A stretch of 39,155 bases of DNA from Rhodothermales bacterium. Its GTDB lineage: Bacteria > Bacteroidota > Rhodothermia > Rhodothermales > UBA10348. Each line of letters begins with the position of its first letter. The first letter of the stretch is position 1. The stretch lies in assembly GCA_040221055.1 (NCBI GenBank), contig JAVJVN010000021.1:1-39155 (forward strand). Direction: 5' to 3'. Of the stretch, positions 5,620-32,693 are shown piece after piece. The position numbers and the translations under genes were made by a program. A model generated the notes under the pieces. It did not search any database. It was not told the origin of the DNA and worked only from the letters and a program-made list of their open reading frames with translations.

Positions 5620-7185
5620 TCAAGACTTGGGTCGGAGCGTGATCACCGGCAGCAACATCTCCTCGAGCGATACCCCGCCGTGCTGCATGGTGTCCTTGTA
5701 CTTGTTGACGTAGTAATTGTAATTCGTAGGGTATACGAAATAGTAGTTTTCCTTCGCGATGATGTAGTTCGTCTGCGCATTTTCCCGGGGCAGCCCGTAC
5801 GTCTCGGGGTCTTTCACGAAAATGGCGTGGCGCCCGTCGCATTTCAGATTGCGGCCATACTTGTAGCGGAGCGCCGTGGACGTTTCGCGGTCCCCGATGG
5901 CCTTGGTCGGTTTCAGGCTGCGGACAATGCCGTGGTCGGTCGTGATGACAATGGTGCAGTCCTCCTCGGCCAGTTGCTGGAAGGCCTGGAACAGCCAGGA
6001 GTGCTCGAACCACGTGCGCGTAAGCGCCCGGTAGGCCCGTTCGTCGGGGGCCAGTTCCTTCAGCACGTCCGAATCGGAGCGGCTGTGGGCCAGGATGTCC
6101 ACGAAATTGACGACCACCGCGCTGAGATCGCTCTGCAGCAGATCATGCACGGACGTCAGGAATTCACGCCCGTCCTGCGAGGAAATCACCTTCCGGTAGG
6201 ACACCCGGTCCGTACGGTGGCGTCGCTTCAACTGATCGACCAGGAACTCCTCCTCGTTCCGGTTGCGACTGTGCTCATCGTCCTCGCCGTCGGCCCAGAT
6301 CCGGGGGTATTTCGCAGCCAGATCCACCGGCAACAACCCCGAGAAGATGGCATTCCGCGAGAACGGAGTGGCCGTCGGCAGGATGCCGTAATGGAATTTT
6401 TTCTCCATTGAGAAGAGTGGTGACAGCAACCGCTCGAACTCCAGCCACTGATCGTAGCGCATACAGTCGATCACGAAGAAAATGACCGGCCGTTTACCCG
6501 TCATGCGGGGCAGCACGAATGTGGGTACGATTTCGTGGGACAGGACGGGCCGATCTTTTCCGGCGGCCAGGTTCTTGTTGCCAATCCAGTCCGGGTAAAC
6601 GGACTCTATCCAACTGGAAAAAACGCGGTTGGACTCGGCATACTGGTCTTCCAGCACCTGCCGGACCCCCTCATCGGAGCCCAACTCCAGATCGTACCGC
6701 AGCAGCTTCTCGTACAGCTCCACCCACTCCTCGTGGTCCAGATCGCCCGCGAGCGCGGCCGTGATTTCGCCGAACGACTGCAGATAGGACTGCGATGCGC
6801 GCTCCGTCTGCAGACGGGCATGATCCAGCAGCCGCTTGCACGTCAGGAGTACCTGCGACGGGTTCACGGGCTTCGTGAGGTAGTCCGAAATCTTGCCCCC
6901 GAGGGCCTCCTCCATTATCCGCTCCTCCTCGCTTTTGGTCACCATCACGACCGGCACGTTCGGGGCGATCGCCTTGATTTCATCGAGTGCATCGAGCCCG
7001 CCGCGGCCCGGCATCTGCTCGTCCAACAGGACGACGTCGAAGGGGCGCTCGCGCATCTTCTCGATGGCATCCAGCCCGTTGGTTACGCTCGTGACCTCGT
7101 ATCCCTTGGATTCCAGGAAGAGGATGTGGGGCTTGAGGAGATCGATTTCGTCATCCGCCCAGAGGATTCGTGAAGGACCGGCCAT
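5620..7185 (-). CDS. porX: PorX-type response regulator with PglZ phosphatase domain
   Basis: 521-aa two-domain protein. Residues 1-120 form a receiver domain with the acidic pair D11-D12, phospho-acceptor Asp55 in VVLLDEQMPG and Lys104 in YLTKPVNPSQ. The rest is a PglZ/alkaline-phosphatase-superfamily domain, with FVIDCMRYDQW, the NFVDILAHSRSD segment and a TTDHG motif that would bind metal. In Bacteroidota this architecture is PorX, partner of the PorY kinase, which controls type IX secretion and hydrolyses oligonucleotides. The gene's presence agrees with the T9SS sorting tail on the protein at 23910-26045. The ATG at 7185 starts directly before the receiver fold. Confidence 0.93.
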   Translation of the reverse strand: MAGPSRILWADDEIDLLKPHILFLESKGYEVTSVTNGLDAIEKMRERPFDVVLLDEQMPGRGGLDALDEIKAIAPNVPVVMVTKSEEERIMEEALGGKISDYLTKPVNPSQVLLTCKRLLDHARLQTERASQSYLQSFGEITAALAGDLDHEEWVELYEKLLRYDLELGSDEGVRQVLEDQYAESNRVFSSWIESVYPDWIGNKNLAAGKDRPVLSHEIVPTFVLPRMTGKRPVIFFVIDCMRYDQWLEFERLLSPLFSMEKKFHYGILPTATPFSRNAIFSGLLPVDLAAKYPRIWADGEDDEHSRNRNEEEFLVDQLKRRHRTDRVSYRKVISSQDGREFLTSVHDLLQSDLSAVVVNFVDILAHSRSDSDVLKELAPDERAYRALTRTWFEHSWLFQAFQQLAEEDCTIVITTDHGIVRSLKPTKAIGDRETSTALRYKYGRNLKCDGRHAIFVKDPETYGLPRENAQTNYIIAKENYYFVYPTNYNYYVNKYKDTMQHGGVSLEEMLLPVITLRPKS

Positions 7186-7388
7186 CGTTGTTCAATCAGT
7201 GAAGTTGGGAAAAACGGTAGCGGTTGGGCGGGACGGGGCTCCGGATGGGTTCAGGGGATGCGCGTGCAAGGCGTTCAGCAGCTTCCTGTTACCCGGTTCC
7301 GCGCGCAAAGGTTCACCGGCACACCGGTAAACAAGATGCGCCGAGGGTCGTTCAACCCGTCAGTGCACACCTATTCCACCCCGAGACC

Positions 7389-23017: not shown

Positions 23018-23860
23018 TCAGTGCCCCACGCGGTCGCGCTGCCGGAGGGACTCGCCGGCCGTGCCGTTCTCGAACGTCACCGGAATCGACACCATCCCCT
23101 CCGTGGAGTCGGCCACAAGGACGTTGAAGTGGAGGTGCTGGATATTGGTGAACCCGGTCAGTCCGGCCCGTCCGAGGGGCTGGCCCCGACCCACGGAATC
23201 CCCGACGGCCACGAAGCTGCCCCCGGGGAGCAGGTGGACGTACTGGGTCACCACACCGGAATGGGGATGATACACCGTGATGTAATTGGCGTACGGGCGG
23301 TACTTGGGGTCGTCCCCGCCCACATCGTAGCCCTCGATGACGCCCACTACCCAGCCGTCATCGGCCGCCGAAATGGTGTCCCCCTCGGCCAGATTGAAAT
23401 CCAGCGCATACCGGGAATAGGCGCTGGTGTGGGAGAAGGATCCTTCATAGCCCTGGATGACTTCATAGGACCGGCCCCGCGGAAACGGCCACGCCAACGG
23501 GACCGGACGGACGGGCGTGTCCAGGCTTCCGAAGGTGAACGAGAAGGAGAGGTTGCTGCGGACCTTCGCGCTGTCGAGGCCGGCAACATCAAGGGCCACA
23601 ACCGTTTCTGACGACGGCTCCAACACCAGGCGGGTTCGCACGCGTTCGTCAACGTCCGATTCCTTGGACGATACTTCAATCCGCGTTGGAATCGGGGCCG
23701 GATTCGTGAACGTGATGAAGAGGGAATCGCCCCGCACTGCGGTCGATGCGCGCAGGTCGGTCTGACGCAGCGTCGCGTCCGGCAAGCGCTCGCACGAGGC
23801 ACCCAGCACGGCGCATACCACCAGCGCTGGAATCAGAAGGAACGTCAGGCGATTCGGCAT
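23018..23860 (-). CDS. M23-family (LytM-type) peptidase domain lipoprotein
   Basis: 280 aa. An export signal with a Cys at residue 23 (LGASC) suggests a lipoprotein, although the lipobox is not ideal. Residues 24-120 are a beta-rich region of unknown family. The C-terminal half is an M23 fold: SHTSAYSRYALDFNLAEGDTISAADDGWVVGV, a YITVYHPHSGVVTQYVHL strand, GDSVGRGQPLGRAGLTG, and HLHFNV with the HxH zinc ligands. M23 enzymes cut peptidoglycan cross-links; some members are inactive activators. Ligands look kept, so activity is plausible. The ATG at 23860 gives the better signal peptide than the one at 23875. Confidence 0.85.
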   Translation of the reverse strand: MPNRLTFLLIPALVVCAVLGASCERLPDATLRQTDLRASTAVRGDSLFITFTNPAPIPTRIEVSSKESDVDERVRTRLVLEPSSETVVALDVAGLDSAKVRSNLSFSFTFGSLDTPVRPVPLAWPFPRGRSYEVIQGYEGSFSHTSAYSRYALDFNLAEGDTISAADDGWVVGVIEGYDVGGDDPKYRPYANYITVYHPHSGVVTQYVHLLPGGSFVAVGDSVGRGQPLGRAGLTGFTNIQHLHFNVLVADSTEGMVSIPVTFENGTAGESLRQRDRVGH

Positions 23861-23909
23861 GGCGAAACTCAGCATTCAGATCGGCGCTCGGCGGCCGATA
23901 CTCCAATGT

Positions 23910-26045
23910 ATGACACATCGGCCCTCATTTGTGCAATTTCGCTGTTTGGCGATCTGGCTGCTGCTCGCGTGGGCGGGCGCGCCGCACGCGTACGCGCAGA
24001 CGGATTTCTGGCGCCCCGTGGATGGGCCGTACGGCGGCGTGAGCGTGACGGACATCGTCAAGCATGACGATGCGGTGGTCGCGGCCACTTCCTCCGGTGC
24101 CTTCCGCTCCGAGGATGGGGGCTTGACATGGGCGAGCGCGTCCAGTGGATTCGCCCAGCCGGACGTGCGCGACCTGCATGTCTCGGACGACGGGACGCTC
24201 TACGCGGCCACATTCGGTGACGGGCTGTACCGCTGGGATTCAGGCGCCGGCGCCTGGATACGCCAGTCCCTCCCCGCCACCTTCCTGACCGCCATCACGC
24301 AAACACATTCCGGCCGATTCGTCGTGGCCACCAATGCCGGTGTCCGGATTTCGGACGATGCGGAGCAATGGCAAACCGTCAGCCTGGACGGCATCCAGGC
24401 GGTTCCGGCGGTACTCTCTGCCAGCGATACCCACGTGTTTGTGGGTACATCCGTGGGCGTTTTCCGATCCGCCGATGACGGCCTGACCTGGACCTATGCC
24501 TCGTTCGGCATGCTGGAATTCGATGTCCGGTCGCTGGCCGTGAACGCCGACGGTCACGTGTTCGCCGGAACGACGCCGAAGAACAATCAATGCGCCGTCT
24601 ACCGGTCCCGCGGCAGCGGCAACCTGTGGACGTGCATCCAACCCATTTCCGACCCCGTCGTGGCGCGCGCCCTCGCCGTGGGCAGCGACGGCCGCCTCAT
24701 GCTGGGCGGCTACCGCACGGTCCAGTCCTCCACCGACGAGGGATCGACGTGGCGCACCCGCACGGCCGCCCCGACCACCATCCAGGCCCTCGCCGAAATC
24801 GAGCCGGGCGTGTGGCTGGCCGGATCGGCGGGCGCCGGCCTGGTTCGCTCGGAAGACGAAGGCTTTTCGTGGGCGGTCTCGAACGACGGGCTCTTCAGCC
24901 CGGTCCGCGATGTTCTCCTGCACGACGGCCGCGTGTATGCGGCCACCAGTGGCGGCATTTTCGTGACCAGCGACCACGGCGCATCGTGGGACCGCGTGCG
25001 CCCGGAAACGCCCCTCATCCAGGACGTTCGGAAACTGGCGGTAAGCGCCGAAGGGCATCTCCTGGCCGGAACGGCCGCGGGACTGTGGCGCCTGGCCCTG
25101 ACCGATGCGCATGGCGGCACCGTTGACGACTCCGAATGGGAGCTGCTCGGCCCGCAGGGACGGCCGCGGATTGGCGCGCTGGCCATCGGTCCGGAAGGCG
25201 CCATATATGTCGGATTCCATTCCGGCGTGCAGATTTTCGGCGGGTCATCGTGGACCCCCATGTACATCCAGGGCGACGACGGGGCGTACCGGGATGTCAC
25301 GTCCCTGGCCGTGCTGGACGACGGCTCCGTAATTGCCGGCGCCGCGTGGGATTCCTGGCGCCTGGAGCCCGGATCGACCACGTGGTCCCTCATGTCCACA
25401 TCGACCCTCGCCTGGTTCGACTTCCAGAGCATAGCCGCGCGCGACGGGCGCATCCTCATCGGGACGCGCTTTTCCGGCGTCCTCGAATCCACCGACGGCG
25501 GTCGCAACTGGCGCACCGCGGCCCCCGGCCTGAACGGCCAGGAAGACGTGCAGACCATTGCGTTCGACCGGTTCGGCAACCCGTTCATCGGCACCTTCGG
25601 CTCGGGCGTCTACCAATTGCATCCGTTCACGCGTCAGTGGACGCCCGCCAACACGGGCCTCGGCGGCCACCTCCGCATCCGCGCCATCGCCTTCGATGAC
25701 ACCGGCATCGGCTGGGTCGGCACCATGGACGGCGGCCTCTACGCACACGGCATAACGAGCGTGCATGTGGAAGAAGATGATGCGCCGCCCACCGCCCCGC
25801 TGACCCCGCGCACACCAGCGCTCGCAGTGTACCCGAACCCCACAGCAGGCCGCGCAACCGTAACCTGGGATGCGCCGCTGCCCTCGCCCGAACGGCTGCA
25901 GGTTTTCGATCTGTTGGGCAGGCAGGTCGCCGATGTGGCCGTCTCCGCAGGTGACCTCACCGCCGAGCTCTCAACCGACACCTGGCCGCGCGGCGTGTAT
26001 GTCGTCCGGATGTCCGGCCAGACCGTTCTGCTGACGCGGCTCTGA
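23910..26045 (+). CDS. Secreted Asp-box beta-propeller with type A T9SS sorting domain
   Basis: 711 aa. A signal peptide ends near AYAQTDF. The body repeats a beta-propeller unit with at least six Asp-box motifs of the form S-x-D-x-G-x-x-W (SEDGGLTW, SADDGLTW, STDEGSTW, SEDEGFSW, SDHGASW, STDGGRNW), as in sialidase/YCF48/sortilin-type propellers; the number suggests two propellers. The last 75 residues (AVYPNPTAGRATVTW, then LLGRQVADV, then PRGVYVVRM) are a Por secretion-system C-terminal sorting domain, so the protein should leave the cell through the type IX system and be surface attached or released. Start at 23910 chosen because it begins the signal peptide. Ligand or enzyme activity unknown. 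Confidence 0.92.
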   Translation: MTHRPSFVQFRCLAIWLLLAWAGAPHAYAQTDFWRPVDGPYGGVSVTDIVKHDDAVVAATSSGAFRSEDGGLTWASASSGFAQPDVRDLHVSDDGTLYAATFGDGLYRWDSGAGAWIRQSLPATFLTAITQTHSGRFVVATNAGVRISDDAEQWQTVSLDGIQAVPAVLSASDTHVFVGTSVGVFRSADDGLTWTYASFGMLEFDVRSLAVNADGHVFAGTTPKNNQCAVYRSRGSGNLWTCIQPISDPVVARALAVGSDGRLMLGGYRTVQSSTDEGSTWRTRTAAPTTIQALAEIEPGVWLAGSAGAGLVRSEDEGFSWAVSNDGLFSPVRDVLLHDGRVYAATSGGIFVTSDHGASWDRVRPETPLIQDVRKLAVSAEGHLLAGTAAGLWRLALTDAHGGTVDDSEWELLGPQGRPRIGALAIGPEGAIYVGFHSGVQIFGGSSWTPMYIQGDDGAYRDVTSLAVLDDGSVIAGAAWDSWRLEPGSTTWSLMSTSTLAWFDFQSIAARDGRILIGTRFSGVLESTDGGRNWRTAAPGLNGQEDVQTIAFDRFGNPFIGTFGSGVYQLHPFTRQWTPANTGLGGHLRIRAIAFDDTGIGWVGTMDGGLYAHGITSVHVEEDDAPPTAPLTPRTPALAVYPNPTAGRATVTWDAPLPSPERLQVFDLLGRQVADVAVSAGDLTAELSTDTWPRGVYVVRMSGQTVLLTRL

Positions 26046-26371
26046 GCCTTGCAGGTTGCGTCTTGGTCGGTTGCGGTTGGATTTCGCGATCGTGGTTTTC
26101 GCGTACCTGAAGGCGCAGGAGAGCGAGCGCAACGAAGGCCTCCGGTTTGAATGGAAACTTGGGCTCACGAAACGGTTAAGCACAAGAAGCCCGATTTGGC
26201 ACCGTCCCGACGGCGGTGAAGGAGGCGGTCAACTCAATTTCAAGCGTAGACGATTGCAAACGACTGCACGTGGATGCCATTCGCGCTGAATCCATGGACG
26301 ACTTCGTTGGGAAGCTCGGCGTTTGAGGCATGTGCCCCGGTTGGTGCGGAGCGGGGCTCCCTCTGAGATGC

Positions 26372-26836
26372 AGGCTCAGCCTGTGAAATCCGAAGCCCTG
26401 CTTTCACGGCCCGTTTTTTGGCGCGAAACAAGTGTGAAGCGGGCTGATTCGGCCAAAATCACAATTATTGGCCCGGCCTCAGTTCCGAACCTGGCTCGAA
26501 ATCCCTGCAACCTGGCGCGATTTCCGTGGAAATTGGCGCGTATGGGCTCATTTGTGGCGTGCTATTCCATCTATGTGGCGCGCTTTCCTGTGCCGGGTTT
26601 TCGCGCCACAATACGTGATCTGCGCGGCAGTTTTACGGGTATGCGCGCCACCGACGCTCCGATTCGCGCCAGTCATAAGGAGTATCGCGCCACGATTTGA
26701 AGGGCTCGTTTTTGGGAAAGTCGCGCTGACGTATCAGAAACGGCTGAAATGGCGCACGTGACCGGCCACAATTGGGTTTTCGCGCCATTTCACACGTGGG
26801 ACATGCAGGGTATCCCCATCGGAAGGCTCAGCCTGT
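26372..26836. repeat. 13-bp direct repeats flanking the octamer array
   Basis: AGGCTCAGCCTGT occurs at 26372-26384 and 26824-26836 in the same orientation; the core is itself nearly palindromic (AGGCT/AGCCT). The two copies bracket the 21-bp-spaced array almost symmetrically. They could mark the ends of a small mobile or structural element, or be leftovers of terminator-like hairpins. Exact repeat is seen; meaning is unknown. Confidence 0.6.
26492..26692. repeat. Array of ten TGGCGCGA-like octamers at exact 21-bp steps, two facing blocks
   Basis: Plus-orientation octamers start at 26492 (TGGCTCGA), 26513 (TGGCGCGA), 26534 (TGGCGCGT), 26555 (TGGCGTGC) and 26576 (TGGCGCGC). Minus-orientation octamers start at 26601 (TCGCGCCA), 26622 (GCGCGGCA), 26643 (GCGCGCCA), 26664 (TCGCGCCA) and 26685 (TCGCGCCA). 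Within each block every step is exactly 21 bp; between the blocks it is 25 bp. The 13-bp spacers share no sequence. Single outlying copies are at 26419, 26721, 26750 and 26780. Two helical turns per step would place all sites on one face of the DNA. Confidence 0.85.
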
Positions 26837-26865: not shown

Positions 26866-27426
26866 CTACACCCGCAGCAGCCCACGGAAGCCCCGCGCCG
26901 CGTAGTACGACTCGGCGCCGTTGTGGTAAATGAACACCCGGCCGAATCGGCGATCCCCGAACAGCGCACCGCCGAGCTCCCGCACTTCCTTTTGCGTCGC
27001 GATCCAGCTGGACGTCTTCCAGTCCAGCTCTACAACCCGTTGCAGCGCATGGTATTGCTCCTCGGTCAGCAGCTCGATTCCCATGTCCCGTGCTGTCCCC
27101 ACCGCCGAGCCCCCCGGCTTGTTCTTCTTGCGCGATGCGAGCGCCTCGGGATCGAAGCACAGGCTCCGCCGACCGTCCGGGCTCTCCGGCGAACAGTCGC
27201 AGAACAGGATTTCACCTTTGGCCACCTTCACGCCGAGCAGGTCCGCGCCTATAACGTCTGGCTCGCCGCCTGACCGCTCCATTTCGCTGAGCGCGCGCAG
27301 CTTTGCCGGCGCATCGACCAGTCGTTTTTCCACGACCGACCACGCCACATCCTTGTGGCGCTCCATGTGCTGCTCGAATCGGTTCTTGAGGGTGTGAAGG
27401 AGGGCTTTCGTGTCGGATTGGTTCAT
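26866..27426 (-). CDS. DUF4256 family protein
   Basis: 186-aa protein matching the DUF4256 pattern from end to end: an N-terminal helix (LLHTLKNRFEQHMERHKD), GGEPDVIG, FCDCSPESPDGRRSLCFD, GIELLTEEQYHALQ, the DWKTSSWIATQKEVRELGGALFGDRR block and the strongly conserved end VFIYHNGAESYYAARGFRGLLRV. The biochemical function of the family is not known. It is a single gene between the repeat array and the HigB-like module. Length is normal for the family and the start ATG at 27426 fits. Confidence 0.88.
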   Translation of the reverse strand: MNQSDTKALLHTLKNRFEQHMERHKDVAWSVVEKRLVDAPAKLRALSEMERSGGEPDVIGADLLGVKVAKGEILFCDCSPESPDGRRSLCFDPEALASRKKNKPGGSAVGTARDMGIELLTEEQYHALQRVVELDWKTSSWIATQKEVRELGGALFGDRRFGRVFIYHNGAESYYAARGFRGLLRV

Positions 27427-27569: not shown

Positions 27570-27902
27570 TTGGACATTTCCTTCAAGACAAGCAAGCTGA
27601 GGAAGCTCTGTAACGATTCCGCGACGGCAACCAAGCGACTCGGCCCACAGCAGGCGCGCAAGCTCCGAAACCGCCTGGACGACTTGCGGGCGGCTCGGAA
27701 TCTGGAAACGCTCCGACATTTCCCCGGGCGCCTGCATGAGCTGACAGGTGATAAACAGGGAGTACTTTCCCTGGACCTGGTTCATCCGGAGCGGTTGTTG
27801 TTTGTCCCGACAGAACCCATCCCGCGGAAACAGGACGGCGGATTGGACTGGACACGCATAGAGGCGATTGAAATCATATCAATCGAGGATACACATGGAT
27901 AG
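27570..27902 (+). CDS. higB: HigB/RelE-superfamily toxin
   Basis: 110 aa starting at a TTG at 27570. The sequence has the small basic RelE-fold pattern: FKTSKLRKLCND, two helices rich in Arg and Leu (ARKLRNRLDDLRAARNLETLRHFP), GRLHELTGDKQGVLSLDLVHPERLLF and a final strand EAIEIISIED. RelE/HigB toxins cut mRNA on the ribosome. It overlaps the next gene, an Xre protein, by 8 bp in toxin-first order as in higBA. The residues of the active site are not conserved enough to confirm cleavage activity from sequence. Confidence 0.8.
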   Translation: MDISFKTSKLRKLCNDSATATKRLGPQQARKLRNRLDDLRAARNLETLRHFPGRLHELTGDKQGVLSLDLVHPERLLFVPTEPIPRKQDGGLDWTRIEAIEIISIEDTHG

Positions 27903-28980
27903 GCACACCACAAATCAGTATCAACCGGACTCGGTATCTCCTCCCGGCGATACGCTACGTGACATCCTTGAGGAGCGTCACATCAGCCAAGCGGATCTGG
28001 CGTTGCGCATGGGCCGCCCCAAGAAGACCATCAGCGAGATCATGAACGGGAAGGCGCCTGTCACCCACGAAACGGCGCTGCAGCTGGAGCTGGTGCTGGG
28101 CGTGTCCGCCGAGTTCTGGAATATGCGCGAAACGCACTACCGGGAGTTCCTTGCCCGGACGGATCAGGAGGCCGAACTGGCCGCCCACCGGGACTGGGCG
28201 AGGAATTTTCCGAGCAAGCAAATGGCCGATCTGGGATTCATCCCCAAGGTCAAAGAACCCGAAGACGAGGTGCGTTATCTCCTGCGGTTCTTTGGTGTGA
28301 GCTCCCCGGCACAGTGGGAGGAGGTTAACAACAAATACGAGGTGGCCTTCCGCAAATCGACCTCCGTTCAAGCCAACCCATATGCACTCAGCGCGTGGCT
28401 GCGTGCCGGTCAGGTGGAGGCCGAATCCATGCGACTCGGCGACTACGACGTGGAGGCGTTCAAGGATTGCCTGACGGCTGCTCGCGCGCTGACCACGGAA
28501 AATCCGGAGACGTTCCAGCCCGCACTGAAGACTTCATGCGCAGCCGCCGGCGTTGGTGTGGCGTTCGTACCGCAACTTCCGAAGTCCGCCGTGAGCGGTG
28601 CGACGCGGTGGTTGAGTCCGGATCAGGCACTCATCCAGTTGTCCCTTCGCTACAAAACCAACGATCATCTCTGGTTCACGTTCTTCCATGAAGCCGCCCA
28701 TGTGCTGCTCCATGGAAAGCGCCAGATATTCCTGGAAAATGGGGCTTCAGACGATGAGTTTGAAAAGGAAGCCGACAGGTGGGCAGCGGACTTCTTGATT
28801 CCCCGGCCCGCGTTTGATGAGATGTCCCGTTGGTCCCGGTACTCCACCGACAACATTGTCGGCATGGCCCGCGAACTCGGCATTGCACCCGGGATCATCG
28901 TCGGACGTCTCCAGCACGAAGGGCGGCTGCCTTACACGCATCTGAACAAGTTGAAGGTGCGTCTCAGGTGGTCTTCCTAA
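27895..28980 (+). CDS. higA: HigA-type Xre antitoxin fused to ImmA/IrrE zinc-peptidase domain
   Basis: 361 aa from the ATG at 27895. Residues 16-75 are a HigA-type helix-turn-helix (GDTLRDILEERHISQADLALRMGRPKKTISEIMNGKAPVTHETALQLELVLG). The C-terminal half is an ImmA/IrrE metallopeptidase-like domain with the HEXXH motif H265-EAA-H269 and the following DEFEKEADRWAADFLIP. The pair with the upstream RelE-like toxin forms a type II toxin-antitoxin module, the zinc domain giving a possible route to regulated cleavage. The stop codon lies inside a 35-bp perfect palindrome. A longer reading from 27868 is less likely. Confidence 0.87.
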   Translation: MDRHTTNQYQPDSVSPPGDTLRDILEERHISQADLALRMGRPKKTISEIMNGKAPVTHETALQLELVLGVSAEFWNMRETHYREFLARTDQEAELAAHRDWARNFPSKQMADLGFIPKVKEPEDEVRYLLRFFGVSSPAQWEEVNNKYEVAFRKSTSVQANPYALSAWLRAGQVEAESMRLGDYDVEAFKDCLTAARALTTENPETFQPALKTSCAAAGVGVAFVPQLPKSAVSGATRWLSPDQALIQLSLRYKTNDHLWFTFFHEAAHVLLHGKRQIFLENGASDDEFEKEADRWAADFLIPRPAFDEMSRWSRYSTDNIVGMARELGIAPGIIVGRLQHEGRLPYTHLNKLKVRLRWSS

Positions 28981-32516: not shown

Positions 32517-32693
32517 ACTTCCATAAAGAACGACCGAGGGACTGGCCCTGTGACGTCGTAGCAACCGGGTTCCGCAAAACGGAACTGCCTTGGTGCTAAA
32601 TCCTGCTCGAAGCGAAGCTCGAGGATGATGGGAGGAGGACGGCAGCCCATCGGGCAGCCGGTGCACCCTCCCCACTATCCGGGAGGGTTTTTT
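32517..32693 (+). ncRNA. SAM-I (S-box) riboswitch with intrinsic-terminator expression platform
   Basis: The core strings GAGGGACTGGCCCTGTGA, GCAACC and GGTGCTAAATCCTGC match the SAM-I consensus. Helices can be drawn: P1 CTTCCAT (32518-32524) with ATGGGAG (32628-32634), P2 ACGAC/GTCGT, P3 with the GTTCCG/CGGAAC hairpin, and P4 ATCC...GGAT enclosing CTCGA/TCGAG. The 3' strand of P1 (GGGAGG) can instead pair with the terminator's left arm, giving an antiterminator. It precedes the methionine genes, so high SAM should stop their transcription. Confidence 0.95.
32665..32693 (+). terminator. Intrinsic terminator of the SAM riboswitch
   Basis: ACCCTCCC (32665-32672), an 8-nt loop, GGGAGGGT (32681-32688), then a T run to 32693: a strong rho-independent hairpin inside the leader. 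Its left arm is complementary to the P1 3' strand, consistent with SAM-dependent switching. Confidence 0.93.

Follow-up and report, generated by a model that had tools for sequence, protein, structure and literature searches.

CRISPR arrays are built of near-identical direct repeats of ~24 to 47 bp in one orientation, with regular spacing and unrelated spacers. In iteron origins and ParR/parC-type centromeres, short sites about two helical turns apart nucleate a protein array, and iterons, like some centromeres, typically have phased direct repeats at this distance.

At transposon ends, changed spacing of transposase sites acts with ~10-bp periodicity, i.e., that of the helical pitch (PMC10201428), and Tn7-like end arrays bound toxin-antitoxin and defense cargo (PMC8649781). 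BrickBuilt, a MITE of Porphyromonas gingivalis (Bacteroidota), is dispersed and intergenic, has an inner series of 23-nt units, and is mostly fixed in place (PMC4596501).

Here, we describe an array in a 39,155-nucleotide stretch of DNA from a Rhodothermales bacterium (contig JAVJVN010000021.1); this whole stretch is referred to as the window. The array resembles CRISPR in its regular spacing and unrelated spacers but consists of a 7-bp word with 14-bp gaps, inverted halves, and a helical phase that continues outside the array. Since the word is 7 bp long and occurs in two orientations, a CRISPR array was rejected, in agreement with the initial annotation of this DNA. Unlike iterons and parC, the locus has inverted arms and several chromosomal copies, and no initiator or partition gene was seen nearby. 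It shares with Tn7-like and CAST ends (PMC10201428, PMC8649781) inverted arrays of short words toward two borders, with spacing tied to helical pitch and, in some cases, toxin-antitoxin (PIN) and defense genes between or beside the arms. Compared with those ends, the sites here are more numerous and regular (5 to 6 per arm), the arms are near-symmetric and mostly without cargo, the copies are strongly diverged, and neither a target duplication nor a transposase was found. Like BrickBuilt, the element is dispersed and intergenic, with inner units that span about two turns and combine conserved with variable parts, whereas BrickBuilt, in its excerpted description, carries tandem direct repeats between a leader and a tail, IS5-like terminal inverted repeats, and some target duplications, and those excerpts do not describe the facing arms that are present here (PMC4596501).

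RESULTS

Structure of the array

Positions 26492 to 26692 of the window contain five forward and five reverse TGGCGCG-type words, all in steps of 21 bp and with unrelated spacers. The ten octamers with an exact 21-bp period that the initial annotation had reported were all recovered at their expected starts. The structure is larger than these ten words and consists of the following features.

26371..26384, + strand: left bounding 14-mer, CAGGCTCAGCCTGT; the homology between the C14 and C15 copies of this genome (see below) starts at this motif on the left
26419..26426, + strand: left-arm outlying word, TGGCGCGA, at a distance of 73 bp from the array (~7 x 10.5 bp)
26492..26583, + strand: left arm, five inward-pointing words starting at 26492 (TGGCTCGA), 26513, 26534, 26555, and 26576, in 21-bp steps
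26584..26600, no strand: centre, the 17 bp separating the inner octamers; its length differs among copies
26601..26692, - strand: right arm, five inward-pointing words starting at 26601, 26622 (one mismatch), 26643, 26664, and 26685, in 21-bp steps
26780..26787, - strand: right-arm outlying word, TCGCGCCA, at a distance of 95 bp from the array (~9 x 10.5 bp)
26823..26836, + strand: right bounding 14-mer, AAGGCTCAGCCTGT, in the same orientation as the left 14-mer

When steps of 20 to 22 bp were allowed, a chain scan of the 39-kb window returned only the two five-word chains. Dinucleotide shuffles of the window (n = 25) yielded a mean of 0.08 chains of at least three words and none of at least four, and mononucleotide shuffles with a strict 21-bp step (n = 20) yielded 0.05 chains of at least three words.

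Mean pairwise identity among 128 units of the genus, a set that leaves aside the arms of the related genus g5 and five arms excluded by eye as coding-like or atypical (G2C34_R, G20_R, G20_L, G17, and G7b), was 0.82 for letters 1 to 7 of the word, a value that is partly by construction since the arrays were found by the word. The phase and spacer results are free of this dependence, and spacer identity was 0.28, where composition predicts 0.25, which bears out the earlier claim that the spacers are unrelated. Three arms (99a_R, 99b_L, and 99b_R) had been lengthened by eye to six words by way of a three-mismatch word, and a scan for at least four words does not report 99a_R or 99b_L. Letter 8 was A in 0.37 and C in 0.34 of the 128 units; the octamers proposed as the repeated unit are thus present, but their conserved part is the heptamer TGGCGCG, with the eighth letter hardly conserved. 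In four homologous arm pairs, identity was 132/154 in the words versus 201/308 in the spacers (Fisher P = 2e-6). The pattern fits selection on sites, putatively protein bound, that lie on a single face of the DNA duplex.

Outlying words, helical phase, and bounding motifs

An extra word was found outside the array in 19 of 24 arms, 63 to 126 bp out (at 63, 73, 83 to 84, 95 to 96, 105, 116, or 126 bp). Among the other five arms, C18_R and G3C102_R have no outlying word, G3C20_R and G1C22_L reach the contig end, and G1C64_R is ambiguous. The outlying words fall on the helical grid, which is a new addition to the first observation: they lie at multiples of ~10.5 bp with R = 0.94 in 17 arms represented by one chosen word each, a value matched by 0 of 200,000 random sets. 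For this test, one outlying word was chosen per arm where there were several, three g5 arms were left out, and the tandem-duplicate c arms were removed from the 19 to give 17. When all 36 outlying words with at most one mismatch were used, R was 0.51 (P = 1e-5), and the 16 exact words gave R = 0.85. Of the periods tried, 10.75 bp produced an R of 0.959 for all 19 arms, slightly above that of 10.5 bp (0.944).

In the g5 element G007:C40, a two-armed 5+5 array with steps of 20 and 21 bp, the two step lengths alternate, so the phase is kept. Both this alternation and the 10.5-bp grid are as required for duplex DNA that is read from a single face. Helically phased site spacing and inverted arrays of one word toward both borders, seen here as two inward arms with an outlying word in most, are likewise features of Tn7- and Mu-type transposon ends. 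Between the two arms, a common phase was not clear (P = 0.05; P = 0.11 without the duplicate value).

The four units in the genome that contains the window have 8 ends, and 7 of these carry a motif like AAGGCTSAGCCTGT (at most three mismatches); it is weak at the right end of C18 (three mismatches) and absent from the right end of C14. At no more than one mismatch, the 14-mer pattern has 8 occurrences genome-wide versus 13 for a reversed control pattern, a total not above control, and 5 of the 8 adjoin the four arrays.

Separately, the 14-mer also terminates a second repeat with dispersed copies. This repeat is ~165 bp long, is bounded by AAGGCTGAGCCTGT...AAGGCTCAGCCTGC, and contains a hairpin-like GCAGGCTCATCCTT...AAAGATGAGCCTGC in its interior. 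It has many copies in genome G003 (>20 BLAST matches), including C69:13002-13167, C89:7634-7811, and C59:22547-22722, and a copy in G002 (C54:49957-50121).

Recurrence and dispersal

Four 5+5 arrays are present in the genome that contains the window (G000; 3.32 Mb in 22 contigs).

C21: the array of the window
C14:384651-384888
C15:49819-50019
C18:170697-171055

Two of the three other genomes of the genus, G003 and G001 (Bacteroidetes bacterium CG12_big_fil_rev_8_21_14_0_65_60_17), also have arrays, mostly with 5 to 6 words per arm. In genus g5 of the same family, arrays occur in G007, G017, and G020, all of which have one-direction arrays, i.e., single arms. The spaced-motif search of the genome and its relatives that the initial annotation had recommended thus returned further arrays with unrelated spacers. 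Its reading would have lost ground if this array had been the only one or if the spacers had been conserved as protein; other arrays exist, and the spacers are not so conserved.

No array was found with a three-word pattern in G002 (same genus, ~94% complete). The pattern has 12 matches there, of which 11 have three mismatches; the remaining one has two and lies inside a 1,956-amino-acid reading frame. None of the matches inspected resembles a two-armed array. G013 (genus g5, 100% complete) had zero matches to the same pattern. Among the matches listed for 60 relatives, short one-direction chains occur in other families, e.g., in G036, G037, and G055.

A wider genome scan matched at least 119 stretches, 80 of which were listed, including the G001:C87 arm itself (L157). 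Apart from this arm, no two-armed array with unrelated spacers was present among the matches listed, with two partial exceptions: a weak array of 4+3 words in Lysobacter soli (L158), with a spacer identity of 0.48 to 0.49, and L184, in which two chains are present but overlap. One-direction chains of at least four words, again among the matches listed, were seen in L126, L144, L146, L150, L168, L181, L189, L226, L240, L312, L327, and L342. A viral-contig scan gave 32 matches, none with a two-armed array of at least four words per arm, and plasmid and phage records gave zero matches to the array. At L267:4811-5080 (G020:C72), upstream of a DEAD-box helicase gene, one-direction TGGCGTGATT-like words in ~20-bp steps are separated by partly similar spacers.

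The C14 and C15 copies are 70 to 85% alike in aligned blocks and lie at unrelated loci, the neighbors being DUF2461 and UvrC genes at C14 versus a propeller gene and a metallophosphoesterase gene at C15. Their likeness starts at the left-hand 14-mer and, on the right, 17 bp past the place of the 14-mer. As in a MITE, a discrete short unit without a gene of its own is found at several places, with borders that are inexact by these 17 bp on one side. In G000, the shared unit extends ~50 bp past the outlying words, and in the G003 and G001 arms, shared sequence mostly starts no more than ~18 bp from the outlying word. A further ~90 bp is common to the tandem pair b_R/c_R. The four G000 copies are strongly diverged, their words nonetheless being kept, and no near-identical siblings were found among the G000 copies compared. 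Target-site duplications were detected in 0 of 7 elements at the outlying words and in 0 of 3 at the 14-mers, and the 5- to 6-mers shared in the window and C15 have inconsistent offsets.

Genomic setting

In the window, the unit lies between a propeller-like secreted gene (23859-26045, + strand) and a DUF4256 gene (26866-27426, - strand), next to which is a HigB/HigA-like toxin-antitoxin pair (27570-28980). The second protein of this pair (HTH plus IrrE-like domain) also matches PADLOC PD-Lambda-2_B. Elsewhere in the window, positions 32518 to 32634 match a SAM riboswitch aptamer (71 bits).

The array of the window is absent from the matching locus in three of three relatives: G002 has ~130 bp between the flanking genes, G001 has a shorter stretch with a HigA-like gene, and G003 has other genes. 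Similarly, the C15 array is absent from both relatives whose compared stretch spans the place. In its own genome, the C15 locus has ~3.6 kb between conserved sides (M28 peptidase, propeller gene, and then the array), versus 0.1 to 0.3 kb in G001, where both sides are kept, and ~1.9 kb of other sequence in G003.

In G003:C99, arms (the right one degenerate) bracket a 6.9-kb island where G001 has 612 bp. The island contains UPF0175, DUF433, DUF5615, PIN, and DUF4143 genes plus unnamed genes, two of which look HEPN-like by eye and have no Pfam match. It lies between two PAPS-reductase-family neighborhoods, which by reading of the sequence are cysD and epimerase/cysH. Part of the island is present in G002 without the arms. 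A gene pair is duplicated within the island (L089:4808-5691 and 6536-7326), nearly identical by eye and without a Pfam match.

Elsewhere, an arm in G001:C87 lies between atpC and a HEC-01-like/type I methyltransferase island, and other arrays adjoin genes for UDP-glucose dehydrogenase, GDP-mannose dehydratase, epimerase, sulfotransferase, or glycosyltransferase. The same neighbors recur in two species: a GFO/IDH oxidoreductase and PhoU in G000 and G003, and a NusG-like gene, sulfotransferase, and glycosyltransferase in G001 and G003. By manual gene picks, all four G000 arrays are intergenic, and three lie between convergent genes. Arrays are often found at the edges of variable gene segments. 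Proteins that look winged-helix by reading of their sequences are encoded near the arrays in G000:C18 (L084:7348-7896, - strand) and G003:C99 (L090:5044-5610, - strand); the two are 36% identical over 180 amino acids and have no family match above the cutoff.

DISCUSSION

The phased words in duplex DNA, their two-armed symmetry, their dispersal, and their gain or loss at matching loci are all direct observations, for which our leading, still tentative explanation is that the array forms the core of an old DNA element of this bacterial family, non-autonomous and dispersed, with a symmetric, helically phased putative protein-docking platform resembling the arrays at transposon ends. A sequence-specific protein would read TGGCGCG and align on a single DNA face in each arm, and the inverted arms would be joined in a symmetric nucleoprotein complex, like the transposase-binding arrays at Tn7-type or Mu-type ends. 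Such a complex may serve DNA movement or joining, a role that would account for the element's dispersal and patchy distribution and for its location at the edges of variable segments. The present copies are probably old and not moving now.

No recombinase was identified among 12 island open reading frames scanned, in which L089:8763-9245 has a sub-threshold match to a resolvase helix-turn-helix, and no transposase linked to the arrays was found. Mu-transpos_C (PF09299) was detected in 0 of 17 family genomes in a search run without a positive control, and rve matches were present in 12 of the 17, with none in G001, which has arrays. Since no target duplication or transposase was seen and the words are kept in diverged copies, membership in Tn7 or Mu is not claimed. 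Retention of the words in diverged copies instead favors a role in place and thus counts against a mobile element, as do the single arms of genus g5, the lack of clear mutual phase between arms, the part of the C99 island that G002 has without arms, and unit borders that differ between G000 (~50 bp) and several G003/G001 pairs (~18 bp).

The main alternative is a docking platform for a chromosomal protein, maintained by the host through selection after an old dispersal, that would act in island boundary formation or silencing, anchoring, segregation, or domain organization. We regard this as a serious possibility, almost as likely as the mobile element. The preference for words over spacers in the four homologous arm pairs, the lack of near-identical siblings among the compared G000 copies, the arrays near the same genes in two species, and the intergenic position of the G000 arrays, mostly between convergent genes, are all consistent with it. 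Nevertheless, the copies are few and variable, the word conservation is partly by construction, and the absence of arrays by pattern from G002 and G013 and from the loci matching the window and C15 argues against such a platform and against an essential chromosome role. For the initial annotation, which had proposed phased binding sites on one DNA face, this means that the phasing, the non-coding character, and the recurrence with unrelated spacers stand, whereas none of the specific roles that it suggested for them (nucleoid, partition, or origin site) is demonstrated.

The remaining explanations fare less well. If the facing words paired in an imperfect long stem, the element would act as a folded single strand, either RNA or an attC/REP-like DNA hairpin. 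All four elements folded did beat their shuffles (z = -3.0 for the window, -6.3 for C15, -3.6 for C14, and -3.3 for G003:C46), and likeness between the arms is slightly higher for matched spacers than for unmatched ones (0.320 versus 0.276; P = 0.026), mainly owing to C15 and G003:C46, with a similar signal when pairing including G-U was scored (P = 0.018). However, such a stem can be obtained from the facing words alone, and the small spacer resemblance would equally suit arms that arose by inverted duplication. Departures from the word are uncompensated (2 same-letter double departures versus 3.0 expected), outlying words lie at unequal left and right distances yet on the 10.5-bp duplex grid, single arms exist, and no Rfam family matched at the array at gathering score. 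A folded strand is accordingly improbable, and a selected RNA hairpin in particular is unlikely. Even less probable is a relic of a plasmid or integrative element, in the form of an iteron-type origin or centromere array: the phased repeats about two turns apart would suit it, but the arms are inverted and several copies are chromosomal, no rep or par gene was found among the neighboring proteins scanned, and neither the plasmid and phage records nor the viral-contig matches provided a counterpart. The heptad-repeat peptide that the initial annotation had offered as its alternative can effectively be excluded. Its frame, 26323 to 26700, is open in the window, but the inner-word offset between arms is 32 in the window versus 32, 69, 190, 188, 211, 192, and 84 in seven copies, which is not constant modulo 3, and the equivalent forward frame is interrupted by 1 to 4 stops in all six further copies tested, so the copies encode no common peptide. 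The 20- and 21-bp steps in g5 and the unrelated spacers, which are not conserved as protein, likewise speak against it.

A more specific, and in our view doubtful, proposal is that the arrays are boundary elements on which a dedicated protein would form a one-faced filament along the facing arms and so mark, insulate, or silence the adjacent variable segments, with their toxin-antitoxin, defense, and polysaccharide genes. Such a role might be comparable to that of insulators in animal chromosomes.

From sequence alone, sites in the window can be seen to be held on one helix face at twelve places over ~370 bp, while the intervening DNA is unrelated among copies. The element offers a ready bait for a putative DNA-binding protein of bacteria that have been little studied, and its position is often a junction between core genes and variable gene segments. 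Both possible outcomes, a new kind of mobile-element platform or a platform for bacterial chromosome boundaries, would be informative.
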